A DNA stretch of 64,000 bases from contig JAGBAO010000009.1 of NCBI GenBank assembly GCA_017938925.1, positions 62,001 to 126,000 on the forward strand, read 5' to 3'. This DNA is from Bacteroidales bacterium (lineage in GTDB: Bacteria; Bacteroidota; Bacteroidia; Bacteroidales; UBA932). The notes below the pieces were generated by a model that was not told the origin of the DNA, did no database searches, and saw nothing but the letters and a program-made list of their open reading frames with translations. A program made the translations under genes and the position numbers. Each line of letters opens with the position of its first letter. The stretch's first letter is position 1. This document shows, one piece after another, positions 642 to 47,872 of the stretch.

Positions 642-1568
642 TTATTGTTTAGTCAAAGTCATTGTTCCCTTGGTCATCACTCCCTGAGCAGCAAGATAGC
701 TGCCACTTGGAGTCCATACAGCAGGAGCATCCTCTGTCCTCCAGACTCCGTCTGCGCCCATAGTGAAGGTCACGACTCCTGAATCCACGAGGTCAAGATA
801 TCCACCACCAAGATCAACCCATGTACCGAAAGAGAACGTATCGGAAAGATCGTCATGCCAAGCCGGTTCCTCAGAATTCACACCGCAGGTCTGACCGCAA
901 GGAATGGTGATTGTCTTCAGGTCCTCGGAAACGTTTCCGTAAACTGCCCATCCGCCCCATGTTGAAGCCAGAGATGTAAGGTACACCGGTTTGTCAATCC
1001 AAACTACAGTGACATCGTCAGGATCATTGGTGAATGACAGTGTCCACTCAGCAGGAGAGCCAGTGTAGAACTGTGCTGAAACCTTGTAATCTCCAAGAAT
1101 TGCTGCCAGAGGATGGTCAAGGTCAACGATCTTCACAGTACAAGTCTTGTTATATCCCAGATCCAGGTCACCGGCACTTTCGAGAGTCACAGTAAAGAGG
1201 AGGTCACCTGTGTAACCGCTCTTCTCAGCTGTTGTCGCGATGTTCACGATATTAAGAACGATGTTCTGAGTACGTGTTTCCCCGTCATAAACGAGAACAG
1301 CCGCCTCATCTGCAAGAGTATAGTTCGTACCCTTCTTAGCTGTGCTGTCAGCAACCGAATAAGCCACTGTCACCTTCACAGGATCCAGTGAAGCCACAGT
1401 CACAGGGATAACCAGTGAATCTGCATCCTCATTCACAGTATATGATGTCTGAGCAAATCCCACGAATGACTTGCCGTCCTCGAACACAGGAGTCTCATTG
1501 AGCTTGCTGCATGAAAGTGCAGCTGTAAGCGCCAGAGCGCAAGCCGTAAATCTATATATGTTTTTCAT
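642..1568 (-). CDS. Lipoprotein with Calx-beta-like domain, third gene of the SusC1 operon
   Basis: A lipoprotein of about 308 residues with lipobox LTAALSC. I chose the ATG at 1568 because AGGAGG lies 8 nt upstream; the ATG two codons earlier (1574) is only 2 nt from that motif. Residues about 30-150 (FAQTSYTVNEDADSLVIPVTV, then VKIVDLDHP) resemble a Calx-beta-type beta-sandwich. The C-terminal half, rich in Trp and Gly, is an unassigned beta-rich domain. The gene at 12080-12868 has the same position and the same opening module in the SusC2 operon, so the two operons share a susC-susD-lipoprotein plan. It is probably a surface glycan-binding protein (SusE/F-like by position). Substrate is unknown. 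Confidence 0.8.
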   Translation of the reverse strand: MKNIYRFTACALALTAALSCSKLNETPVFEDGKSFVGFAQTSYTVNEDADSLVIPVTVASLDPVKVTVAYSVADSTAKKGTNYTLADEAAVLVYDGETRTQNIVLNIVNIATTAEKSGYTGDLLFTVTLESAGDLDLGYNKTCTVKIVDLDHPLAAILGDYKVSAQFYTGSPAEWTLSFTNDPDDVTVVWIDKPVYLTSLASTWGGWAVYGNVSEDLKTITIPCGQTCGVNSEEPAWHDDLSDTFSFGTWVDLGGGYLDLVDSGVVTFTMGADGVWRTEDAPAVWTPSGSYLAAQGVMTKGTMTLTKQ

Positions 1569-1587
1569 AAACATTTCCTCCTATTCA

Positions 1588-3021
1588 TTAATAACCTACA
1601 TTCTGAACGAGATTGCCGTTGGCACCGATCTCCCTGAGAGGTATAGGCATAGCCCACTTGTGCTGTCCCCATGCGAGATCCTTTGCTGTTGCATCACCGA
1701 CAAAGTCAGTTCTGGTCATGTTTCTCTTAGTACGACCGAGGTCGAACCAGTAGTGTGCCTCCCATGCGAGTTCCTTCTGCCTCTCGAGCCATACACCTTC
1801 GAGTGTGGCATTCTGAGCTGTCGCACCTCTCTGTGCAGCGAGGTCAGCAAGAGCCTGAGGAGCGTTGTAGCCCTGAGCACCTCTTACCACAGCCTCAGCA
1901 AGGTTGAGATACATCTCTGAAAGACGGAGAACAATCACGTTTGTGAGGTCCGGCTTTGCAAGGCCCTTACCTATGTACTTAGCTGTCCAGAGGACACCGT
2001 CCTTTTCCTGGAAGAGGGTTCCGCGAACGTCGTCAGCCTCATAAAGGTTCTTGAGGTCCGTCGAAGCTCCTGCATCACCATATCCGTCAGGTCCGCACAT
2101 CGGAGAGAGGCCGTCATGGTATCCGTCATATGAGTTTGACTTGTTTCCATATATCTCGAAGATAACCTCACCACCTGTAGGAACATCTACAGAATAGCAT
2201 GCAGCATCCTCAACCTCCTCCGGAGTCCAGAGCTTGTAGTCGTAATCGTTGATCACCTTTGAAGCATAATCCGCAGCACCCTGCCAGTTCTCGCTGTAGA
2301 GATATACACGGCTCAGGAGAGCCTGGATTGCAGGAAGAGTCACAACTGCCTTTGAGTCTGTCACGCCAGCCCTCACATAAGAAGGATCGATAGCCTTTTC
2401 AGCCTCAAGAAGGTCTGCGATAACCTGGTCATAGACTTCCTTCACGGTGTTTCTTGCAGGCTTTCCTGCCGGGTCAGTCTTGAGCACTACAGGGACTCCG
2501 AGATGAGATCCCTTGCCGTCAGCTCCGTTCTGGTCGTAGCAGTATGGCTGAGCATAAGTCCTCACAAGGTCGAAATGTGCGAGAGCACGGAGGAAGAGAC
2601 ACTCTGCCTTGAGATTGTTCAGATCCTGTGCAGTCACATCAGGAGTCTCCTTGCCTTCAAGATTGTCAAGAACGTTGTTCACTGAAGAGATCACGAAATA
2701 TGCATAACCCCAGAGGGATGATGTGTTGTTCGGATCGTAGTTAAGGTTGTAAAGGTCGTTGCAACGGCCTGAGTCCCAAGTGGAACCTATCCATTTCTTT
2801 CCGTTGGATGTCTTGAGCTCGTTATAGATGATGAAGTCTGCTCCATACCAATATGCCGAAGCAAGAGGTGAATATGCACCGGCAACAGCCTTGTCAAGAC
2901 CCTCATATGTCGAGAGAGTCAGCTCGTTGCTCTGCGCCAGAACGGGATCCTCCACAAGGAAATCCTGACATCCTGTGAACGCAGCAACTGCGACTAACGG
3001 TATCAATATATACTTTTTCAT
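1588..3021 (-). CDS. SusD/RagB-family glycan-binding lipoprotein (SusD1)
   Basis: SusD-like outer-membrane lipoprotein that caps the SusC1 transporter and binds substrate at the cell surface. The signal peptide MKKYILIPLVAVAAFTGCQDF has a lipobox Cys. The N-terminal half carries TPR-like helices (for example LKAECLFLRALAHFDLVRTYAQPY). The C-terminal signature WLERQKELAWEAHYWFDLGR, followed by a terminal PIP-rich segment, is characteristic of the family. About 477 residues is normal length. An in-frame ATG two codons upstream (3027) is also possible. It lies 6 to 12 bp after susC and is co-transcribed with it. Substrate is not predictable from sequence. Confidence 0.93.
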   Translation of the reverse strand: MKKYILIPLVAVAAFTGCQDFLVEDPVLAQSNELTLSTYEGLDKAVAGAYSPLASAYWYGADFIIYNELKTSNGKKWIGSTWDSGRCNDLYNLNYDPNNTSSLWGYAYFVISSVNNVLDNLEGKETPDVTAQDLNNLKAECLFLRALAHFDLVRTYAQPYCYDQNGADGKGSHLGVPVVLKTDPAGKPARNTVKEVYDQVIADLLEAEKAIDPSYVRAGVTDSKAVVTLPAIQALLSRVYLYSENWQGAADYASKVINDYDYKLWTPEEVEDAACYSVDVPTGGEVIFEIYGNKSNSYDGYHDGLSPMCGPDGYGDAGASTDLKNLYEADDVRGTLFQEKDGVLWTAKYIGKGLAKPDLTNVIVLRLSEMYLNLAEAVVRGAQGYNAPQALADLAAQRGATAQNATLEGVWLERQKELAWEAHYWFDLGRTKRNMTRTDFVGDATAKDLAWGQHKWAMPIPLREIGANGNLVQNVGY

Positions 3022-3033
3022 ACTCATTTTCGT

Positions 3034-6000
3034 TTAGAATGACAATTCAATACCACCTACAAAAGATTTTGTCAAAGGATAGACTCCCGCACCTGTTCCG
3101 CTGACACCCATTTCCGGATCCCAGAAATTGACATCGTTGAAGCAGTAGAGGTTAAGTCCGCTGACAAAGAACCTGAGTCCCTTCACGTGGATCTTGTCGA
3201 GAGCCACCTTAGGAAGAGAGTAAGACAGAGTCACGTCCTTGATACGGAGGTAGTCACCTCTTTCAAGCCATCTGTCGCTGAGGGCAGTCGCAGAGTTGGT
3301 TGCATTACCTGCGATCGGCTTAGGGTTCACACCTGTGTCACCCGGCTTCTTCCAGTAGTTGAGAGCAGAAGCCATCTGGTTCATGTTCATTTCCTTACCG
3401 TCAGAGTTGAGGTAGCTGTGCTCATTGAGGATGAGGACATGGTTACCGGCCTTGAACTCGAAGAATGCACTGAGTGAGAGACCCTTCCATGCGAATGTCG
3501 TGTTGAAACCTCCGAGGAGCTTTGGCTCAGGTGAACCTGCATAGTACTTTCTTGCATCTGCATAGTTGTTTGAAAGCGAGCCGTCCTCAGTCACCCAGAG
3601 AGCCTCACCGTTTGCAGGGTTGACTCCGTAGTAATCAGGAAGATAGAAGCTGTACATAGACCTTCCCACAACATAGTGCGTGAAACTTCCTGCTTCGATC
3701 TTCTCGAGACCGTTTGCATCAGGATCCACTGCGAGGTCAAGGATCTCGGTCTTGTTGTGTGCGAGGTTGAAGCCTGCTGTCCAAAGGAAATCCTCAGTAG
3801 CAATGATGTCTGCATCCAACTGGAACTCGACACCTGTGTTCTTCATCGAACCTGCATTCATGAAGTTGGTGCTGAAACCTGTTGTCTGAGGCACCTTGAC
3901 ATCGAGAAGCATATCGTCTGTGAGACGCTCGTAAACATCGAAACTACCTCTGAGTCTGTTTCCAAGGAATCCGAAGTCGAGACCCACGTTCCAGGTCTTG
4001 TTCTTCTCCCATGAGAGATAGTCGTTTGCAGGCTGAGCCGGAAGCATACCCACAACGCCGTTGTACTGTGTGCTTGAATAGACACCATATGCCTGATATG
4101 GGTCGATGCCGTTGTTACCGTTCACACCGTAGCTCGCACGGATCTTGAGAAGGTCAAGCCAGCCTGAAGTGCTGTCCATCCATTTCTCATTGCTGATGTT
4201 CCATGAAGCTGAAGCTGACCAGAAGAGTCCCCACTTGTTCTTTGCACCGAAGAGTGACGATCCGTCACCACGGACTGTAGCCTGAACGAAATATCTGTTG
4301 TCGTAGTTGTAGTCAGCGATTCCGAAGAATGACATCATCGTATGATTTCTGAATCCTACTTCAGACTCTACAGATGACTGAGGAGCTGTGTTCTGATAAG
4401 GAATCTGAGGATCTACGCCCGGAGCAGATACATAAGAATACTCATACTTATAGGCAGTAGCCTCCTGACCGAGGAGAACCCTCATTGAGTGGTAGCCGCC
4501 GAATACGTTTGCGTAGTTGATCGTATTAGAAGTCGTATAGTTTGTATACTGGCTCTTTGTTGTCTGGAGAGTTGCATCAGAAGGCTGTCCCTGTGAAAGA
4601 GGATTCCAATAACGTCTGTCCTGGGTGAAAGCCATCTCGGCAGAGTTCCTGGTCTCGATCACGAGGTTCTTTACAGGCTCCCACTTGAGGAACATTGTTC
4701 CGTTGAACTTGTATGACTTCGACCACTGGTCGTCATACTCTGCAGTCGCACGCGGGTTCTGATATGAGTTTGTAGGGATATCCACATTGTGGTTTCCGTT
4801 CTCGTCATACTTAGGAATCCAAGGAAGCATTGTCATACCGGCCCATACAGGGTTAGCATAGTAGAGCGACTGCATAGGGATATCGTTCTGATCGGTGTAG
4901 GCTGCATTCACGCGGATACCTGTCTCGAGGTTCTTGAGAAGCTTGTAGTCAGCATTGACACGAGCCTGGAAACGTGAGTAGTCGATGCCGTAGAACACAC
5001 CGTCGTTCTTATGATAAGAGATTGAAGAGTAGTATTTTCCCTTTGCATTACCACCTCTTGCACTGATCTCGTACTCCTGAAGCTGTCCAGGACGAGTCAG
5101 ATGCTCGAGCCAGCTTGAAGTGTCACCTGAAAGGAGTGACATCGGGCGATAGTAAGATCCTGCAGGATTGTCAGGATCGAGACCTGCGTTGATGATTGCA
5201 TCCCTCTGGTATCCGAGAAGCTCTGAGCCTGTCATCATGCGGAAGCCGCTGTCGCTCTGAAGCCATGAAACACCATACTTCACGCGTGCATCGAACTGAG
5301 CCTTTCCTTCCTTACCGCTCTTGGTGGTCACGAGGATGACACCGTTTGCAGCACGTGAACCATAGACGGCAGCTGCAGCAGCATCCTTGAGGACTGTAAT
5401 CGACTCGATGTCGTTAGGGTTGATGGATGTAATACCACCAGATGCACCTTCGTTGGTCATCTCACCTGTACCGTCGATGATCACCGGAATTCCGTCCACA
5501 ACCCAGAGAGGTGCGTTGGAAGCGTTGATTGATGAGTTACCGCGGATACGGATCTGTGACTGGGCACCAGGCTGTCCTGAAACGGCAGTAACCTGCACAC
5601 CGGCAAGCTTACCTGACAGGGCCTTGTCCACAGAGGTGACCGGAGTTGAAGCAAGGCTCTCGCCCTTGACAGAAGTAACCGATCCTGTCACAGCCTCTCT
5701 CTTGGCCGAACCGTAAGCCACGACCACCACGTCATCGAGGTAGTTCATGTCTTCCTTCATCACCACCTTTACCGGCTCAGCCTGAACCGGAGCCGAAGCT
5801 GTGGTCATCCCAAGAAAAGTCACGATGATCTCTTTGGCGTCCACTGGGACCTGCCTGATTCCGAATTCACCCAGTTCGTTAGTCATGGTACCAATAGTGG
5901 TTCCATTGACCAATACGTAGGCTCCGGCAATCGGTTGACCATCCTTCTCGGCGACAACAGTACCAGTCACTGTGATTGTCTGGGCGGTCGCCAGACCGAT

Positions 6001-6045
6001 ACTCGCGAAGAGTAGGGTCATCAACAACAATAAATGTTTCTTCAT
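3034..6045 (-). CDS. SusC/RagA-family TonB-dependent outer-membrane transporter (SusC1)
   Basis: TonB-dependent importer of 1003 residues, first gene of the left operon. Signal peptide is at residues 1-22 (ends ATAQ). A carboxypeptidase-D regulatory-like domain follows at about 24-95. Then come a TonB-box-like DDVVVVAYG, the plug with the family motif IRIRGNSSINASNAPLWVVD (about 165-185), and a beta-barrel ending in Phe (GGIELSF). It pairs with the SusD immediately downstream. The leader and first 95 or so codons are paralogous to those of SusC2 on the other side of the recombinase. Its promoter at 6158-6189 lies inside the putative invertible segment, so expression is probably phase variable and ON in this orientation. 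Confidence 0.95.
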   Translation of the reverse strand: MKKHLLLLMTLLFASIGLATAQTITVTGTVVAEKDGQPIAGAYVLVNGTTIGTMTNELGEFGIRQVPVDAKEIIVTFLGMTTASAPVQAEPVKVVMKEDMNYLDDVVVVAYGSAKREAVTGSVTSVKGESLASTPVTSVDKALSGKLAGVQVTAVSGQPGAQSQIRIRGNSSINASNAPLWVVDGIPVIIDGTGEMTNEGASGGITSINPNDIESITVLKDAAAAAVYGSRAANGVILVTTKSGKEGKAQFDARVKYGVSWLQSDSGFRMMTGSELLGYQRDAIINAGLDPDNPAGSYYRPMSLLSGDTSSWLEHLTRPGQLQEYEISARGGNAKGKYYSSISYHKNDGVFYGIDYSRFQARVNADYKLLKNLETGIRVNAAYTDQNDIPMQSLYYANPVWAGMTMLPWIPKYDENGNHNVDIPTNSYQNPRATAEYDDQWSKSYKFNGTMFLKWEPVKNLVIETRNSAEMAFTQDRRYWNPLSQGQPSDATLQTTKSQYTNYTTSNTINYANVFGGYHSMRVLLGQEATAYKYEYSYVSAPGVDPQIPYQNTAPQSSVESEVGFRNHTMMSFFGIADYNYDNRYFVQATVRGDGSSLFGAKNKWGLFWSASASWNISNEKWMDSTSGWLDLLKIRASYGVNGNNGIDPYQAYGVYSSTQYNGVVGMLPAQPANDYLSWEKNKTWNVGLDFGFLGNRLRGSFDVYERLTDDMLLDVKVPQTTGFSTNFMNAGSMKNTGVEFQLDADIIATEDFLWTAGFNLAHNKTEILDLAVDPDANGLEKIEAGSFTHYVVGRSMYSFYLPDYYGVNPANGEALWVTEDGSLSNNYADARKYYAGSPEPKLLGGFNTTFAWKGLSLSAFFEFKAGNHVLILNEHSYLNSDGKEMNMNQMASALNYWKKPGDTGVNPKPIAGNATNSATALSDRWLERGDYLRIKDVTLSYSLPKVALDKIHVKGLRFFVSGLNLYCFNDVNFWDPEMGVSGTGAGVYPLTKSFVGGIELSF

Positions 6046-6128
6046 AGTGTTGATTTTTTACAGTTAAACATAAATATTGAAACAGTGTTACACTACACTT
6101 ATCTTTATCAGGTTATCATTGCTGAATT
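6046..6128 (-). promoter_or_regulatory. Conserved susC leader (left copy)
   Basis: The 5' leader between crossover site 1 and the SusC1 start codon. It matches the leader of SusC2 (7126-7194) almost base for base over three blocks: AATTCAGCAAT, then GTGTAGTGTAACACTG, then TTCAATATTTATGTTTAAC; AATCAACACTATG closes it. The middle block contains the perfect inverted repeat AGTGT-A-ACACT at 6084-6094. By eye this untranslated stretch is more conserved than the coding sequence after it, suggesting a shared regulatory or RNA role. What binds it is unknown. Confidence 0.6.
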
Positions 6129-6144
6129 AAAGGAGCGTTTATTT
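6118..6144 (-). repeat. Crossover site 1 of the putative invertible element
   Basis: A 27-bp block identical at 26 positions to the inverted block at 7110-7136. Its core at 6129-6140, read on the minus strand, is AAACG-CT-CCTTT: two near-palindromic arms around a non-palindromic dinucleotide. Serine recombinases cut with a 2-bp stagger at such a core. The core dinucleotide reads AG on the plus strand here and CT at sites 2 and 3, so recombination with either gives inversion. One arm base differs from the other two copies. Confidence 0.7.
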
Positions 6145-6157
6145 CACCACTCGCTTA

Positions 6158-6189
6158 CAAAGCTATAAATCATAAATTACAATTCCAAA
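6158..6189 (-). promoter_or_regulatory. Bacteroides-type promoter driving SusC1, inside the invertible segment
   Basis: On the minus strand, TTTG (6186-6189), a 20-nt spacer, then TAGCTTTG (6158-6165), an exact match to the Bacteroides consensus TTTG / TAnnTTTG. Transcription would start near 6150, pass through crossover site 1 and enter the conserved SusC1 leader. I found no TAnnTTTG on the plus strand from 6992 to 7113, where a SusC2 promoter would have to lie. In the orientation shown SusC1 should therefore be on and SusC2 off, or weakly expressed. Confidence 0.65.
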
Positions 6190-6261
6190 TGCAACAAAAT
6201 CACCCTTATATTAAGTATATTCAGGCTTTTAGCACTTTTGTGTTATCTTTAGTCTTTTATT

Positions 6262-6300
6262 TTTAAATTTTCGCTTTCGAATTGAAAGTAGAAATTTAAA
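6262..6300. other. Imperfect AT-rich hairpin downstream of the recombinase
   Basis: Arms of 17 bp (6262-6278 and 6284-6300) pair except at two positions around a 5-nt loop. The hairpin lies 77 bp beyond the recombinase stop and upstream of the SusC1 promoter. No clear U-tract follows on either strand. It could be a weak terminator separating recombinase from susC transcription, or a structural or protein-binding site for the recombination complex. The remainder of 6193-6376 is AT-rich and shows no gene. Confidence 0.35.
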
Positions 6301-6376
6301 AATGGTAATATTTTATAAAAACGACAAAATTCACATTTTATAGCATATAAAGTCCAAAAATACCGGCAAAATGCTC

Positions 6377-6991
6377 TTATTGCTGATTATTACTTTGTTG
6401 CATTGTATGCAGATATTTATAAAGTGTGTTTCTATGGAGTCCGTATTTCCTTGCTACTGAAGACAAGGATTCTCCTTTCCTGAGAACATCTTCAATTTCT
6501 ACGCGATTGCGTAAAAACATTTCCCACTTTCTTGAACTGCCGACAGGGCGCCCCAGCACTACGCCTTCCATCCTTTTGGCAGCAAGGGCCTCCTTTGTCC
6601 GTTGGGATATCAGGTTCCTCTCAATTTCTGCCGCAAGAGCAAAGGCAAAGGCAATTATTTTCGAGTTGATATTGTCAGAGAGGTCGAAATTGTCCTTTAT
6701 CGTGTGGATTGACACGCCTTTTGACGCACAGATATTCAGAATTCCCATGATCATAAGCATGTTGCGGCCGAGCCTTGATAATTCGGTGCACACCAGCAGA
6801 TCACCTTTATCCATCTTCCTGATGGTCCTTCCCAAGGTCCGTTTTTCTACTGCCACAGTTCCTGATACCGACTCCGAGAGCCAATGGTCCACCTTGATAC
6901 CATTGGAACAGCAGTATTTCCTGATTTCATATTCCTGACTTGAGTAATTCTGCATCTCCGTGCTCACTCTGATATACGCATATACTGACAT
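6377..6991 (-). CDS. Serine site-specific recombinase, DNA-invertase type
   Basis: Small serine recombinase of 204 residues, the size of Hin/Gin/Pin-type invertases. The catalytic domain opens YAYIRVST with Arg8 and nucleophile Ser10. The second active-site motif SRLGR gives Arg73 and Arg76. The long E-helix spans about residues 112-138. A C-terminal helix-turn-helix (about 173-195, SLSSVARKYGLHRNTLYKYL) would bind the half-sites. All key residues are present, so it should be active. It lies inside a segment flanked by inverted 2-bp-core sites, as hin does. Bacteroides fragilis Mpi, which flips capsule promoters, belongs to the same broad family. A site copy at 7028-7039 sits just upstream of its start and could allow autoregulation. 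Confidence 0.93.
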   Translation of the reverse strand: MSVYAYIRVSTEMQNYSSQEYEIRKYCCSNGIKVDHWLSESVSGTVAVEKRTLGRTIRKMDKGDLLVCTELSRLGRNMLMIMGILNICASKGVSIHTIKDNFDLSDNINSKIIAFAFALAAEIERNLISQRTKEALAAKRMEGVVLGRPVGSSRKWEMFLRNRVEIEDVLRKGESLSSVARKYGLHRNTLYKYLHTMQQSNNQQ

Positions 6992-7027
6992 GATTATATA
7001 TGATTATTGATTTTCATACGAATATAT

Positions 7028-7039
7028 AAACGCTCGTTT
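7028..7039 (+). repeat. Crossover site 2, upstream of the recombinase gene
   Basis: A perfect AAACG-CT-CGTTT core, 36 bp upstream of the recombinase start. It is in the same orientation as site 3 and opposite to site 1. It shares the inner flank (ATA before the core) but not the AATTCAGCAAT outer flank of sites 1 and 3. It may be a secondary inversion site (911-bp segment with site 1), an autoregulatory operator, or both. Confidence 0.6.
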
Positions 7040-7109
7040 CCATAGTCACATTTCATCATTGATGTTGCAGACTGCATGAGTTCTGCGACAGGATTTGTCA
7101 TGTCCTGTA

Positions 7110-7136
7110 AAATAAACGCTCGTTTAATTCAGCAAT
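7110..7136 (+). repeat. Crossover site 3 of the putative invertible element
   Basis: Right-hand partner of site 1, with a perfect core AAACG-CT-CGTTT at 7114-7125. The extended 27-bp block matches site 1 at 26 positions. The conserved SusC2 leader begins directly after it. Just inside (7088-7107) is a small inverted repeat ACAGGA/TCCTGT. No TAnnTTTG promoter box is visible on the plus strand between the recombinase start and this site. Confidence 0.7.
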
Positions 7137-7194
7137 ACCCTGGTGTAGTGTAACACTGATTCAATATTTATGTTTAACAACTAAAATCAACACT
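7126..7194 (+). promoter_or_regulatory. Conserved susC leader (right copy)
   Basis: Counterpart of the left leader at 6046-6128, with the same blocks in the same order and a 14-bp shorter spacer. The inverted repeat AGTGT-A-ACACT is at 7147-7157. It contains TATTTATG and TATGTTTA, each one base off TAnnTTTG. Neither has a TTTG at the right distance, so I do not call a promoter here. It may be a common post-transcriptional or regulator-binding element serving whichever operon the switch selects. Confidence 0.55.
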
Positions 7195-10100
7195 ATGAAA
7201 AAATCCCTATTGTTGATGATCGCTCTGCTTTTTGCAAGCATGGGCATCGCTGCGGCTCAAGGCCTGACAGTTACAGGTACGGTCGTTACGGAAAGTGATG
7301 GTCAACCGGTTGTAGGAGCGTATGTTCTTGTGAACGGAACAACACTCGGAACCATCACGAATGACAAAGGTGAATTCGGAATCCGAAACGTTCCGGCTGA
7401 TGCGAAGGAGATAATCGTCACTTTCCTCGGACTCACGACAGCATCGGCTCCGGTTCAGGCCGACCCGGTAAGAGTGGTCATGAAGGAAGGCCACAACTTC
7501 CTGGACGAGACCATCGTGGTGGCTTATGGTACTGCCACCAAGAGTTCGTTCACAGGATCTGCTTCAATGGTCAAGGCAGAGACCATCGAGGCACGCGTTT
7601 CTACAAATGTGACTACGGCATTGGCGGGTACCGCTCCTGGAGTTCAGGTAATCTCGTCATCCGGTGACCCTGCTGATAATGGAGCATCTATCCGAATCCG
7701 TGGAGTCGGATCAATGAGTGCCAGCAACGCTCCTTTGTATATCGTTGACGGCATGCCTTACGACGGAAGCATAGCAGACATCAACCCTAATGACGTTGAA
7801 TCCATGTCGGTTCTCAAGGATGCAGCCGCATCGGCAATCTATGGTGCCCGCGGAGCAAACGGAGTCGTGCTGATCACCACAAAGAGAGCCTCAAGTTCCG
7901 ATGCTTTGGTGAAGTTTGATGCAAAATGGGGCTCGAACTCACGACTCATCCCTCAGTACGACGTCATCACCAATCCTGCCGAGTACTATGAAACCCACTA
8001 CCGCATGCTTTACAATTCGCAGATCTATGCAGGCAAATCTGCCGCTGAAGCTTATGCATATGCCGACAACAATCTCTTTGATCAGAATAACGGAGGTCTG
8101 GGATATCAGGTCTATACCGTTCCTGAGGGAGAGAAGTTCATAGGCACCAACTTCAAGCTCAATCCTAAGGCTACTCTCGGATACTCTGACGGCACATACT
8201 ACTATACGCCGGACGACTGGTACAACGAGGCCTTCCATGATTCATTCCGTCAGGAATACAATCTTTCCGTAAGCGGCTCCAAGGACAGGCTTTCATACTA
8301 CGGCAGCGTGGGATATCTGGATGACGGAGGTATCGTCAACAATTCCGGATACAAACGTTATACTGCCCGTATCAACGCAGACTATCAGGCAAAGAAGTGG
8401 CTGAAGTTCACGACCAGCATGAGCTACTCTCACTCTGATTCTCAGACTCCTTCCTATTCAGACACTTACGGATCGTCAGGAAACATCTTCTACATCACCA
8501 ACAACATGGGTCCGATCTACCCTCTTTATGTACGTGATGCAGACGGCAAGATCATGTATGAGAACGGACTTCCAGTGTATGATGCCAACCAGACCAACTT
8601 CAAGCGTCCTAGCGTTGTGGGTAACGCTGTCAGGGACAATGAGCTCAACAGGAAGCAGTCGTATACTGATGTTCTGACTGGAAAATGGGGTGTTACAGCC
8701 ACTCCTGTAAAGGGACTCTCCCTCACGGCAAACGTCAGTCTGATGAACAGCAACCAGAGAGTCAACTACCTCTACAGCCAGTTCGGATCGTCTTCTTCCG
8801 TTGACGGAGCCGCATATGCCGCTCATTCGCGTATGTTTGCCGTTAACAATCAGTATCTGGCTGAATACAAGACAGACTTCGGCGGCAGTCAGCATAGCTT
8901 CGACATTCTGGCCGGTTATGAACTCTACAAACTGAAGGACCAGCTGATCGAAGGATCCAACGACCACCTCTTCAATCCGTTCGTAGGCGAACTTGGAAAT
9001 GCCGATGGAAAAAGCAATATGGAAACAGATTCCGAGACTCTCGGCTATATGACTCAGGGTCTCCTCGCAAGAGTACAGTACAACTATGCAGAGAAATATT
9101 TCATAAGCGGTTCTTTCCGTCGCGACGCCTCATCACGTTTCGCACCTGGTCATCAGTGGGGAAACTTCGGTAGCGTAGGAGCAGCATGGCTTATCAGCAA
9201 CGAGGGTTTCATGAGCAGTGCCGAATGGATTAACATGCTCAAGCTCAAGGCCAGCTATGGTGTACAGGGTAATGACAACCTTCTGTCATACTATCCATAT
9301 TCGGATCAGTACACCCATTCATATAATGAGGACAGTGGAGAATACTCGACTCAGCTGACTTATAAGGGCAACAATGAACTTACCTGGGAGTCATCACATT
9401 CTCTTAACGCCGGCGTCGACTTTGAGCTGTTCGGAGGCTATCTCAACGGTAGTGTGGAGTATTTCTCACGCAAGACTTCCGACCTTCTCTACAACAAGCC
9501 TGTTCCTCTTTCTTCAGGAAACCCTACAGGATACTTCCCGACAAATGTGGGATCGATCCTCAACAATGGTGTGGAGGTGTCGTTGGACGGCCAGATCATC
9601 AGGACCCGCAATGTCAACTGGACATGGAATCTGAATGCCAGCCACTACAAGAACACCATCCTGGCCCTGGACGAGGATGTGGAAGGCGAAGGAATCAAAT
9701 ACAGCAACTCCATCTACAAGGTGGGCGGATCGCTTTACGAAGCCTACATGCGCAGGTATGCAGGCGTTGACCCTCAGACCGGAAAGGCTCTCTTCTACAA
9801 GAAGGTTCTCGACGAAAACGGAGAATGGACAGGAGAGGACGAGGTCACTGACGTATTCACCCAGGCAAGCCAGTATGAATGCGGCTCCGTGATGCCTAAG
9901 CTTTATGGCGGTTTCGGAACATCACTTCATGTTTATGGCTTTGACATTTCAGCCCAGTTCTCTTTCCAGCTCGGAGGAAAGTATTATGACGGAACATATC
10001 AGGCCCTCATGCACACCTCTACTGCTGTGGGTACCGCATGGCACAAGGATGTCCTCAAGTCGTGGTCTGAGACCAACACAGACACCAACATCCCTCGTCT

Positions 10101-10401
10101 TGACGGAGACACAAGCGTAGGACAGACAGCTGTGGATTGCTTCATGATCAGTTCCAACTACCTTAGTGTAAACAATGTTACAATCGGATATACCTTCCCG
10201 GCGAAGTGGATGAAGAAGATCAAGGTGGCCGGTCTCAGGGTATATTGCTCAGGAGAGAATCTCGCTGTGGCTACAGCCCGCAAAGGCGTTGACCCTCGTT
10301 ACTCTATGGGACTCGGATCATATACATCAGGCTCAGGTCTGAACAGCGGAGCATACTCTGCCATGAGAACCATCACAGGAGGTCTGACACTTACATTCTA
10401 A
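7195..10401 (+). CDS. SusC/RagA-family TonB-dependent outer-membrane transporter (SusC2)
   Basis: TonB-dependent importer of 1068 residues, first gene of the right operon. Signal peptide is at about 1-21 (AAAQ), and a carboxypeptidase-D regulatory-like domain follows at about 24-98. The TonB-box region reads DETIVVAYGTAT, the plug has IRIRGVGSMSASNAPLYIVD at about 165-185, and the barrel ends LTLTF. It appears chimeric. Residues 1 to about 97, and the leader before them, resemble SusC1. The plug and barrel closely resemble SusC3 and not SusC1. In this orientation no good promoter precedes it, so it is probably silent until the upstream element inverts. Confidence 0.95.
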   Translation: MKKSLLLMIALLFASMGIAAAQGLTVTGTVVTESDGQPVVGAYVLVNGTTLGTITNDKGEFGIRNVPADAKEIIVTFLGLTTASAPVQADPVRVVMKEGHNFLDETIVVAYGTATKSSFTGSASMVKAETIEARVSTNVTTALAGTAPGVQVISSSGDPADNGASIRIRGVGSMSASNAPLYIVDGMPYDGSIADINPNDVESMSVLKDAAASAIYGARGANGVVLITTKRASSSDALVKFDAKWGSNSRLIPQYDVITNPAEYYETHYRMLYNSQIYAGKSAAEAYAYADNNLFDQNNGGLGYQVYTVPEGEKFIGTNFKLNPKATLGYSDGTYYYTPDDWYNEAFHDSFRQEYNLSVSGSKDRLSYYGSVGYLDDGGIVNNSGYKRYTARINADYQAKKWLKFTTSMSYSHSDSQTPSYSDTYGSSGNIFYITNNMGPIYPLYVRDADGKIMYENGLPVYDANQTNFKRPSVVGNAVRDNELNRKQSYTDVLTGKWGVTATPVKGLSLTANVSLMNSNQRVNYLYSQFGSSSSVDGAAYAAHSRMFAVNNQYLAEYKTDFGGSQHSFDILAGYELYKLKDQLIEGSNDHLFNPFVGELGNADGKSNMETDSETLGYMTQGLLARVQYNYAEKYFISGSFRRDASSRFAPGHQWGNFGSVGAAWLISNEGFMSSAEWINMLKLKASYGVQGNDNLLSYYPYSDQYTHSYNEDSGEYSTQLTYKGNNELTWESSHSLNAGVDFELFGGYLNGSVEYFSRKTSDLLYNKPVPLSSGNPTGYFPTNVGSILNNGVEVSLDGQIIRTRNVNWTWNLNASHYKNTILALDEDVEGEGIKYSNSIYKVGGSLYEAYMRRYAGVDPQTGKALFYKKVLDENGEWTGEDEVTDVFTQASQYECGSVMPKLYGGFGTSLHVYGFDISAQFSFQLGGKYYDGTYQALMHTSTAVGTAWHKDVLKSWSETNTDTNIPRLDGDTSVGQTAVDCFMISSNYLSVNNVTIGYTFPAKWMKKIKVAGLRVYCSGENLAVATARKGVDPRYSMGLGSYTSGSGLNSGAYSAMRTITGGLTLTF

Positions 10402-10420: not shown

Positions 10421-12055
10421 ATGAAACTCAACAAATACACTTTAATAGCACTTGCCGGACTTGCTTTCGGAGCTTGTTCCGACATGGATGAGATGGCGCC
10501 TCAAAGCGGTACGCTCCTCGACTCTCAGCTTGCCCAGGCAAATGATGCCGATCCCACACGAGTTGATGCTGCCTTCAACGGTATGTACACAAAGCTTGGC
10601 ATGCCATGGGGAGCTCTTCCAAGCAATGAGCGTCCTGATGACTTCGGTTTCATCATGATGTCATACTCGAATGACCTCGAAGGTGCGGACATGGTGACTC
10701 CGAACAGTGGATACAACTGGTTTTCCGTCTGTGGAGAACTTTCTTCCAGAAATGCAAACTACGCAAATCCTTTCATAAGATATGCTTCTGCCTACAATCA
10801 GGTGACAGCAGCCAATGATGTAATCAAGGCATATTCGAAGATGGACCAGAGCAATCCGGAGAATGTCTATAAGATGGCTCAGGCCTATGCGATGCGTGCA
10901 TTCTCCTATCTGAATCTTGCTCCATATTTCCAGTTCAGTTATCAGATTGCATCTGACAAGCCATGTGTGCCTATCGTGACCGAGACAACAGAGGACTTCA
11001 CCCAGAATCCTCGTGCCAGCGTCAAGGAGGTCTATGACCTGATTCTGAGCGACCTCACCTTTGCGATCGAGAAACTCGAAGGATATGCACGTCCTGACAA
11101 GGCAAAGATAGACCAGCAGGTGGCATACGGACTCCGCGCCCGTGCATATCTGAATATGGGCAAATGGGCTGAGGCCCTTGCTGATGCAGAGAAGGCTGCA
11201 GCAGGCTACACGCCGGCAACTGTCGCTGAGGTTTCGAAGCCGTCATTCTACGACATCAACGAGCACAACTGGCTGTGGGGATATGACATGACCGGAGTGA
11301 TCGCGCTCAAGGATCTCTATGCCAATGCTAGTTCATGGGTGAGATCGTTCTCTGCAGAAGGTTATGCAGCTGCCTGCCAGGTGTACGCACAGTGCAATGT
11401 CATCCTTTATGACAAGATTCCTGCAACCGACGTCCGCAAGGGATGGTGGGTGGACGAGAACCTCGACTCTCCTCTTCTTGCTGCAGTCACTTGGAACGGC
11501 GTGAGTGGAAATGACGTGGCGGATCTCGCAATAGAAAACATAAAGGAGCCATTCCTCCCCTACACCAACGTCAAGTTCGGAATGAACACATACGGCAGCA
11601 CGACCAACGATGAAGACTGGCCGTTCATGCGCGTCGAGGAGATGCTTCTGATTCAGGCAGAATGCCACCTCAAGAATGGTGACGAGGCCAAGGCCAAGGA
11701 GGTTCTCGAGGGATTTGTAAAGACATACAGAGATCCGGCATATTCATGCGACCCTGCAGTGACCAAGCGTACCCTGGAAAACGAGATCTGGTTCCAGCGC
11801 CGTATCGAGCTTTGGGGTGAAGGATTCTCGAACTCTGACACAAGGCGTCTGAACAAGCCTCTCGTGCGTTTCCACGATGAGAACAGCAACTTCCCTGAAG
11901 CATTCCGCTTCAACCTGAAGAATGACGACGGATGGTGGCTTCTCCGCTTCCCTCAGGACGAGATGGACACCAATCTGGCAATCGTTGACAACACAGACGG
12001 AACTTCACCTGTTCAGGATCAGAATGCTGACCTTCGTGACGGTGTTACCGACTAA
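10421..12055 (+). CDS. SusD/RagB-family glycan-binding lipoprotein (SusD2)
   Basis: SusD-like lipoprotein of 544 residues, 19 bp after SusC2. The signal peptide ends LAFGAC, with an acidic stretch after the Cys. The family core is present: VYKMAQAYAMRAFSYLNLAP (TPR-like), then WFQRRIELWGEGFSNSDTRR and an LRFPQDE segment near the C-terminus. It is closely related along its whole length to SusD3 (16288-17916), sharing for example NSGYNWFS and DINEHNW. The SusC2/D2 and SusC3/D3 pairs are therefore tandem duplicates. The extra length over typical SusD (about 500-550) is modest. Confidence 0.93.
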   Translation: MKLNKYTLIALAGLAFGACSDMDEMAPQSGTLLDSQLAQANDADPTRVDAAFNGMYTKLGMPWGALPSNERPDDFGFIMMSYSNDLEGADMVTPNSGYNWFSVCGELSSRNANYANPFIRYASAYNQVTAANDVIKAYSKMDQSNPENVYKMAQAYAMRAFSYLNLAPYFQFSYQIASDKPCVPIVTETTEDFTQNPRASVKEVYDLILSDLTFAIEKLEGYARPDKAKIDQQVAYGLRARAYLNMGKWAEALADAEKAAAGYTPATVAEVSKPSFYDINEHNWLWGYDMTGVIALKDLYANASSWVRSFSAEGYAAACQVYAQCNVILYDKIPATDVRKGWWVDENLDSPLLAAVTWNGVSGNDVADLAIENIKEPFLPYTNVKFGMNTYGSTTNDEDWPFMRVEEMLLIQAECHLKNGDEAKAKEVLEGFVKTYRDPAYSCDPAVTKRTLENEIWFQRRIELWGEGFSNSDTRRLNKPLVRFHDENSNFPEAFRFNLKNDDGWWLLRFPQDEMDTNLAIVDNTDGTSPVQDQNADLRDGVTD

Positions 12056-12079: not shown

Positions 12080-12868
12080 ATGAAAAGAAATATAATATTC
12101 ATGGCTTTGTCGGCAGCATTGCTTCTCGCTTTTGCATGCCAGAAGGAGGATACATATGTTCCTGGAAAGCCGACTGTGGAGAATGACAATGTATATTTCA
12201 GTCCTGACAACGGAACTTCGGCTGTTCTCGCTGTGGATGAGACTGAAGTGACTGTTCTCCTTTCAAGAATGGACTCGACTGATGCCCTGACAGTTCCTGT
12301 AACAGCATGGACATCACATCCTGCAGCCTTCGAGCTTCCTGAAAAAGTGGAGTTTGCGGCTGGAGCAGCAACTGCGGAATATAAGATAAAGACGACTGAC
12401 AGCCTTGCCATGTTCGTCAACTATCCTGTAAGACTTTCCATTCCGGAGGAACTCACAAACGCATATGATACCCTCGACGTATATCCTCGCTTTGCTCTGA
12501 ATGTAGTCAAGGAAGACTATAAGACCTGTGCAAAGGGTACTTGGATTGACTACTTCATGTATGCTGGCGAAGAGGCTGCCGAGTGGGAGCAGGCACTTCA
12601 GTATTCCGAGATTCTCGACACCTACCGTTTCCCTGACGTATGGTATCCGGGATACAGTGTGGAATTCAAATGGGACGGAAAGGGTAATCCAGAGATGGCA
12701 GCAGCCTACACGACCGGTGTGGAAGACTCGACTTACGGCATGATCACCGCAAATACCGTTGACGCCACTTATGCAGACGACACTTTCGTTCTCAATTTTG
12801 AGTGGACGGTATCTGCCGGTAGTTTCGGAGCTGCTCCGCAGATATTTGTAATAACAGAAAAGCTGTAG
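12080..12868 (+). CDS. Lipoprotein with Calx-beta-like domain, third gene of the SusC2 operon
   Basis: Lipoprotein of 262 residues with lipobox LLLAFAC. Residues about 35-145 (NVYFSPDNGTSAVLAVDETE, then PEKVEFAAGAATAEYKIKTT) look like the same Calx-beta-type beta-sandwich as the protein at 642-1568. The C-terminal half (YEDTCAKG-type opening, FKWDGKG) is unassigned and Tyr/Trp-rich. It follows SusD2 by 24 bp and is followed by a terminator at 12899-12936, so it closes the operon. By position it is probably a surface glycan-binding partner of SusD2. The SusC3 pair downstream lacks an equivalent third gene. Confidence 0.8.
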   Translation: MKRNIIFMALSAALLLAFACQKEDTYVPGKPTVENDNVYFSPDNGTSAVLAVDETEVTVLLSRMDSTDALTVPVTAWTSHPAAFELPEKVEFAAGAATAEYKIKTTDSLAMFVNYPVRLSIPEELTNAYDTLDVYPRFALNVVKEDYKTCAKGTWIDYFMYAGEEAAEWEQALQYSEILDTYRFPDVWYPGYSVEFKWDGKGNPEMAAAYTTGVEDSTYGMITANTVDATYADDTFVLNFEWTVSAGSFGAAPQIFVITEKL

Positions 12869-12898
12869 CACCTTCTGGTTATTTACATAAATATTGAC

Positions 12899-12936
12899 GA
12901 GAGGCCGGACCCTGAGAAGGATCCGGTCTCTTTCAT
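12899..12936 (+). terminator. Rho-independent terminator after the SusC2 operon
   Basis: A 12-bp stem with one mismatch and one G-T pair (12901-12912 with 12919-12930) around a 6-nt loop, followed by TTTCATT. It separates the SusC2 operon from SusC3, which must then have its own promoter or depend on read-through. Confidence 0.7.
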
Positions 12937-47841: not shown

Positions 47842-47872
47842 CAAAAGTAATCAGAAATCCGGATAACGCAAA
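47842..47872 (-). promoter_or_regulatory. Promoter of the long minus-strand polysaccharide operon
   Basis: Minus strand: TTTG (47869-47872), a 19-nt spacer, TACTTTTG (47842-47849), matching the Bacteroides consensus exactly. The start codon at 47817 follows 25 bp later, giving a very short leader. I saw no ECF-sigma, HTCS or SusR-like regulator gene in the window for this locus. Confidence 0.7.

Follow-up and report, generated by a model that had tools for sequence, protein, structure and literature searches.

A putative promoter-inversion segment with its own serine recombinase between two divergent importer operons of Cryptobacteroides

In the 64,000-nucleotide stretch of the Bacteroidales contig JAGBAO010000009.1 analysed here (the window), two susC genes of outer-membrane importer operons diverge from a short segment that encodes a serine recombinase. 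Is this segment a fixed boundary between two operons, or does it invert and thereby decide which of them is transcribed? The sequence of the window and of its relatives makes it very probable that inversion of a self-contained promoter segment alternates the two importer operons; catalysis, transcription, switching within one population and a benefit to the cell are what we infer from this arrangement.

In the proposed mechanism the ~1-kb segment between the two outer sites would constitute a self-contained DNA-inversion switch, in which the recombinase encoded inside the segment would act on the two inverted sites and flip it. A lone vegetative promoter, located past the 3' end of the recombinase gene, would read outward across the neighbouring site and into the importer operon there (the ON side); the operon on the other (OFF) side has no recognised promoter. 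With every flip one susC-susD operon would be switched on and its counterpart silenced, and a clone would then hold cells with differing importers. The parts of the locus are:

3034..6045, minus strand: susC1 (TIGR04056, 807 bits), on the promoter-bearing side in this assembly
6063..6098, minus strand: susC1 leader with TCAATATTTATGTTTAAC, in inverted repeat (97%) with 7143-7178
6129..6140, plus strand: left recombination site AAAGG-AG-CGTTT, inverted relative to the right site
6158..6189, minus strand: predicted promoter TTTG-N20-TAGCTTTG, aimed at susC1, 17 nt inside the left site
6377..6991, minus strand: Mpi-like serine recombinase (invertase), inside the segment (Resolvase domain, E = 1.2e-33)
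7028..7039, plus strand: third site, exact, direct to the right site and 86 bp inside it
7114..7125, plus strand: right recombination site AAACG-CT-CGTTT, inverted relative to the left site
7143..7178, plus strand: susC2 leader with TCAATATTTATGTTTAAC, in inverted repeat (97%) with 6063-6098
7195..10401, plus strand: susC2 (TIGR04056, 748 bits), on the side without a promoter in this assembly

The recombinase and its sites

The recombinase (204 residues) is flanked head-to-head by susC1 and susC2, whose products are 34% identical. It has the catalytic domain and the conserved Ser and Arg of small serine recombinases: Y6, R8 and S10 are kept in 56/59 susC-flanked relatives (the other three being gaps) and R73 and R76 in 59/59, so that the serine recombinase with an intact active site described by the first-pass annotation between divergent susC genes is borne out by the Resolvase domain, the Y/R/S/R/R residues and the two TIGR04056 matches. 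The nearest solved structures are 3uj3 and 4m6f (chains named DNA-invertase, E ~2e-16), with gamma-delta resolvase also matched. The best NCBIfam score is to NF009949, the master DNA invertase Mpi family, at 259 bits against a curated cut-off of 272, and Mpi-like is thus used here for the closest, top-scoring family, although the match falls under its cut-off. That annotation had called the switch Hin-like, which holds for the layout, since invertase gene and promoter both fall within the segment 6129-7125 as in a Hin-type switch; the enzyme, however, is closest to the Mpi family. The only other recombinase match in the window genome (2.67 Mb in 34 contigs, 91.9% complete) is 26% identical.

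The left and right sites are embedded in a 30-nt inverted repeat (93%; 6118-6147 and 7107-7136). Inverted copies of AAACG-CT-CGTTT had been reported around the recombinase; their inversion and asymmetric core are confirmed, but the left copy has one mismatch. Within three mismatches the window contains 8 site matches (the three sites being counted on both strands) versus 2.58 in shuffled sequence, with 1/100 shuffles reaching 8. Across the 2.67 Mb of the genome the three window sites are the only matches to the 14-mer TAAACGCTCGTTTA within one mismatch, and three single sites elsewhere each differ from it by two. The many genome-wide targets that are a trait of the Mpi family were not found, in that no further site lies within one mismatch (other cores were not searched separately), and the enzyme thus looks local. 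Recombination of the third site with the right site would delete the 86 bp between them; extra internal sites, mostly degenerate, are seen in a few relatives too.

Relatives were compared as a set of 65 loci, comprising the window, 60 hand-picked stretches from the best recombinase matches and 4 of a set of 80 loci. In 46 of the 65 the recombinase has a divergent susC gene to either side of it, and the other 19 are without susC on one or both sides, several owing to a contig end. A serine invertase requires matching cores within its site pair. With the best site on each side chosen by its arms alone (at most two mismatches), 48/65 loci qualified, such a site being missing on at least one side in 17, and the cores agree within the locus in 48/48, compared with a mean of 11.9 and a maximum of 27 in 10,000 permutations; three of these loci (L287-L289) have identical recombinases. 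Six core types occur across the loci, none of them palindromic, and the window and 48/48 loci thus have the two inverted sites with the same asymmetric core by which an inversion switch is recognised. Cores that are equal within a locus yet drift between loci form the pattern that a serine invertase needs, and the shared asymmetric 2-bp core makes inversion the expected outcome.

A promoter on one side of the segment

The predicted promoter fits the Bacteroidetes vegetative pattern (TTTG-N-TAnnTTTG) and, as first proposed, is the single one inside the left site and points to susC1. In the 64 kb, TTTG-N19-23-TAnnTTTG has one further match, at 47842 (0.33 expected; 4/100 shuffles reached two matches). 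The promoter now lies 113 nt before the susC1 ATG and after a flip between the cores would lie 99 nt before the susC2 ATG; a matching distance had been predicted.

This asymmetry recurs among the 45 loci in which two susC genes and two sites are present, the ON side being taken as the 3' side of the recombinase. A relaxed promoter (TTG-N18-25-AnnTTTG) within 75 bp inside the site is found on the ON side in 29/45 loci, on the OFF side in 1/45 (L292) and in the outer leaders in 0/45 on each side, while shuffled ON sides give a mean of 1.4 and a maximum of 5 (300 shuffles). The strict pattern over the whole inner region is matched in 12/45 versus 1/45, and the lone -7 box (AnnTTTG) is present on 38 ON sides, 4 OFF sides and in 1 and 3 outer leaders. 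The consensus of Bacteroidales invertible promoters has -33 TTTG and -7 TANNTTTGY (PMC8748976; papers cited by PMC number are drawn on in excerpt throughout). In the 29 promoter-positive loci 16-21 bp separate the end of the -7 box from the site, a spacing suited by the RNA starts of such promoters in B. intestinalis, which were mapped inside the proximal inverted repeat (PMC8375218). By eye, L273 (G470:C16) has a promoter-like sequence inside its OFF-side site too, possibly leaving both operons on.

Between the promoter and susC1, and in inverted orientation before susC2, lies the leader 18-mer, which occurs exactly twice in the window genome within two mismatches. A switch-specific role for this motif was considered and rejected, because in other Cryptobacteroides it precedes susC genes that have an upstream promoter, the stretch seen containing no recombinase. 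At L312 (G007:C26) a divergent susC lies ~500 bp from a leader motif in a stretch without a recombinase, possibly a switch that has lost its former invertase; G007 has on the same contig the distal element described below. A conserved terminator between recombinase and promoter was likewise rejected (median folding z 0.0 in 44 loci, 4 of them below -2; -2.5 in the window itself), and an Rfam search of 5000-8500 gave no match up to E = 1.

Opposite arrangements and moved operons among relatives

If the OFF-side operon were never expressed, its genes would be expected to decay. Of the susC genes complete in the fetched stretches, 49/49 on the OFF side and 54/54 on the ON side encode at least 900 residues, with two per side running off the stretch, and the silent operon thus appears to be kept.

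Shared susC genes also change sides. Where two loci share a susC (60% identity or more) and their recombinases reach 70% identity, 12 pairs are in opposite arrangement, 9 in the same and 2 in both. At 70% identity there are 69 susC pairs, of which 43 can be aligned across the site and 26 cannot. Homology extends no more than 11 bp inside the site in 21/22 opposite-side pairs, whereas it extends at least 49 bp inside in 7/21 same-side pairs. In 7 opposite-side pairs homology begins within 11 bp of the site; elsewhere it begins further out and does not locate the exact break.

A flipped segment can be separated from a moved operon by the chromosome beyond, and 13 opposite-side cases were therefore compared over longer arms. 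Five of the 13 support a flipped segment, all of them involving one of two genomes, L237 or L242. The left arm of L237 follows the right arm of L239 to 18 kb, while its right arm has 4.7 kb of outer chromosome in common with the left arm of L239; similarly, its right arm follows the left arm of L250 to 17.7 kb and its left arm has about 1.6-1.7 kb of outer chromosome in common with the right arm of L250. Same-side comparisons of L237 give no far homology save 0.65 kb at 65%, and against both L239 and L250 the shared operon homology begins 1-2 bp inside the site. The arms of L237 thus match the opposite arms of its relatives, and its segment is reversed in the same chromosome, with anchors on both sides. 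The L242 segment is reversed relative to L248, L245 and L236, its left arm being collinear, with gaps, to their right arms (~20 kb for L248 and L245, 16 kb for L236), and is anchored on one side only. A search of related genomes for the opposite arrangement, proposed with the first-pass annotation, thus finds it between species (L237, L242), with breaks at the site.

Operons have moved as well. In L267/L268 each outer arm aligns collinearly with its same-side counterpart (7.9 kb on the left, 5.4 kb on the right), yet one operon sits on the other side. L235/L241 gives the same pattern, although its right-hand comparison stops at a contig end after just 0.5 kb, and in each case what has moved runs from the site to the operon end. 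Since operons move as well as segments, the mixing of sides alone is no proof of flipping. A recombinase that mainly moves importer cassettes, joining or exchanging whole operons at the site with promoter inversion as a by-product, would account for these two pairs, in each of which the partner operon differs, for the third, direct site in the window, and for the opposite placement of susC genes sharing 91-97% identity between species with recombinases just 72-82% identical. We regard it as improbable. A promoter placed on one side close to the site, and cores that match and are inverted, are features that serve inversion, homologous recombination via shared leaders or terminators could shift operons without the enzyme, and among 14 extended arms no site (at most one mismatch) stands at the far end of an operon, with two isolated ones elsewhere.

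Several observations weigh against inversion of the promoter segment. The two pairs with a moved operon make up 2/13 of the long-arm comparisons, and a further 6/13, including the window versus L238, do not discriminate between the two. In the opposite-side pair L273_L/L275_R homology continues, exceptionally, for 159 bp inward of the site. Groups of susC at 70% identity are found on both sides in 12/26, somewhat below the 15.4 (standard deviation 2.4) of random orientation, and the reversed segments are known between different species, whose recombinases are 71-80% identical. The relaxed promoter pattern is unmatched in 16/45 loci, the left site of the window is inexact, and a consensus promoter for the recombinase itself was not found above chance (3/47 loci versus 1.9 in shuffles). 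Contigs end within 500 bp of the recombinase in 8/58 genomes (1.68 expected; the count omits G064, G088 and G089, where by coordinates none lies within 500 bp of an end), an excess that could reflect mixed orientations, but static inverted repeats can break contigs too.

The mismatch in the left site and the lack of a consensus promoter for the recombinase would suit a relic that no longer flips, its operons being under ordinary regulation by promoters elsewhere. Such an explanation is very hard to reconcile with the conserved catalytic residues, the cores matched in 48/48 loci, the intact OFF genes, the segments reversed in relatives and the finding of two-box promoters in 0/45 outer leaders on each side, and we give it little credence. 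The invertible promoter of the first-pass annotation, by comparison, is upheld by the matched cores, the one-sided promoter, the intact OFF genes and the opposite arrangements that break at the site.

The recombinases associated with importers form a coherent group. A close recombinase (E of at most 1e-72) is present in 47/400 Cryptobacteroides genomes, that of the window included, and a quick tree of 136 recombinases, which did not include B. fragilis Mpi, places 62 of them in one clade (Shimodaira-Hasegawa-like approximate likelihood-ratio test, 100), with susC on both sides in 45, on one side in 14 and on neither in 3. Outside the clade 2/74 have susC (L292 on both sides, L082 on one), and the association is thus largely confined to one lineage. 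L292 (G088:C2) has a recombinase from outside the main clade (45% identical) between susC genes; its cores, both TC, match and its promoter lies on the opposite side, which may point to an independent origin. L256 (G632:C3) has a recombinase of the switch clade (68% identical) between metabolic genes, with no susC found and no site within two mismatches nearby, and in L259 (G296:C9) the recombinase is separated from the far susC by a sulfatase and two genes with ATPase domains, a sign that the segment may carry cargo. A megablast of window positions 1-25000 against plasmids gave no match, and an IMG/VR scan gave recombinase relatives of at most 61% identity (80 of 90 matches kept).

Importer operons and known inversion systems

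Beyond the susC genes, the operons and their ends contain:

642..1574, minus strand: Calx-beta protein of operon 1, with same-strand genes continuing to the left of the window
1588..3027, minus strand: susD1 (SusD_RagB and SusD-like_3)
10421..12055, plus strand: susD2 (SusD domains)
12080..12868, plus strand: 262-residue protein at the end of operon 2, lipoprotein-like by the reading of its start, with no Pfam match
12872..12932, plus strand: distal element CTTCTGGTTATTTACATAAATATTGACG with a hairpin (z = -4.7)

To the left of the window operon 1 continues with a subtilase and three proteins that match no Pfam family (one of them scanned over part of its length), followed by a second distal element; operon lengths in the relatives are bounded by the fetched stretch. 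The first-pass annotation took these operons for glycan importers, a description which we drop: none of the operon proteins scanned has a carbohydrate-active domain, operon 1 includes a subtilase, and peptide uptake therefore seems at least as likely as glycan uptake. The same switching mechanism might also serve surface-protein variation against phages or host immunity, and not nutrient choice. SusC1 and SusC2 are 34% identical, importers vary in side and partner between species, and inversion regions at or near SusC/SusD genes are oriented differently in bowel-disease patients than in controls (PMC10939037), while the subtilase of operon 1 suits peptide uptake; we consider this purpose a serious possibility that falls somewhat short of even.

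Each operon ends in the distal element, 28 nt followed by a hairpin. The inverted partner of the copy listed above is found beyond the window (G000:C7:56617-56644; L234:6617-6644), and the two copies, which form outer inverted repeats ~18 kb apart, are the only ones in the window genome within three mismatches. Recombination via these elements could conceivably invert the entire locus. Seven occurrences were found in 4 genomes among 101 of the genus scanned. In the subgroup made up of the window, L235, L236, L241, L242, L245, L248 and L260 the element holds 12-13 nt (13 nt in the window genome) complementary to the susC leader; the arms of L237-L239, L250, L267, L268 and others gave no copy, and the element is confined to this one subgroup. 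A general operon-end antisense element is in part rejected on these grounds. Reversed-leader controls gave matches as long as 13 and 15 nt in individual arms, so that match length by itself proves little, and it is the recurrence in the same element that counts. The element could pair with leader RNA or could mark the ends of a cassette. In L299 and L323 (G052:C5, G029:C11), stretches outside the switch contig in two switch-bearing genomes, an exact 18-nt reverse complement of the susC leader adjoins a sequence resembling a hairpin, a possible antisense RNA.

The locus combines traits of several known inversion systems. In the flagellar switch of Salmonella the serine invertase Hin and a promoter both lie inside the inverted segment, which drives one operon and represses another gene via a repressor, with the use of a Fis enhancer. 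Invertase and promoter likewise share the segment here, but two operons face it and would share one promoter, in place of an operon and a repressor. Tsr0667 of B. fragilis is a tyrosine recombinase. Its shufflon-type multiple inversions at three SusC/SusD gene clusters (PMC4747536) likewise alter which SusC/SusD proteins get made, whereas a serine recombinase, not one of tyrosine type, and a promoter segment are found here. Mpi of Bacteroides fragilis, which inverts surface-molecule promoters, represents the best NCBIfam match and has a related palindromic site, quoted as ARACGTTCGTN (PMC8375218); unlike Mpi, the enzyme described here is encoded inside its own target, with an importer on both sides of the segment and no other site within one mismatch.

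Bacteroidales invertible promoters elsewhere adjoin their invertase (PMC8748976; PMC11892184), and in an inverton survey one tyrosine-type invertase family is consistently placed where the promoter cannot drive it (PMC11892184); the promoter consensus and a local invertase are shared with the present locus, in which the invertase sits within the segment. Promoter-bearing inverted repeats have been mapped genome-wide in B. thetaiotaomicron (PMC10994844), and excerpts of two reviews refer to SusCD inversions but not to this layout (PMC12632263; PMC11868660). In searches of an open-access library we recognised no description of an invertase-carrying promoter segment between two importer operons, in keeping with the first-pass annotation, which did not recognise a two-importer switch with its own invertase as described, although founding papers could contain single cases. 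A self-contained two-way inversion switch for importers would thus be a new variation on known inversion switches.

Consequences for importer repertoires

In a wider and more tentative reading, which we hold possible without favouring it, this chromosomal site of Cryptobacteroides would be a place of importer exchange, combining a two-way promoter toggle, a dedicated invertase clade and nested inverted repeats (the site, the leader and, in one subgroup, the terminator) with cassettes that are alternated and, in addition, change places between sides and between species, so that a common expression site would serve one shared pool of importers. A change of operon at one site would offer a route to importer repertoires that differ between species.

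If the promoter segment inverts as proposed, the choice between two outer-membrane importers would be made at random in each cell of a gut bacterium, by a compact switch that encodes its own enzyme. The switch would be a defined part of ~1 kb, testable in laboratory Bacteroides, and it predicts mixed importer states in metagenomes, for example in the deer, sheep and horse samples that yielded the named relatives.
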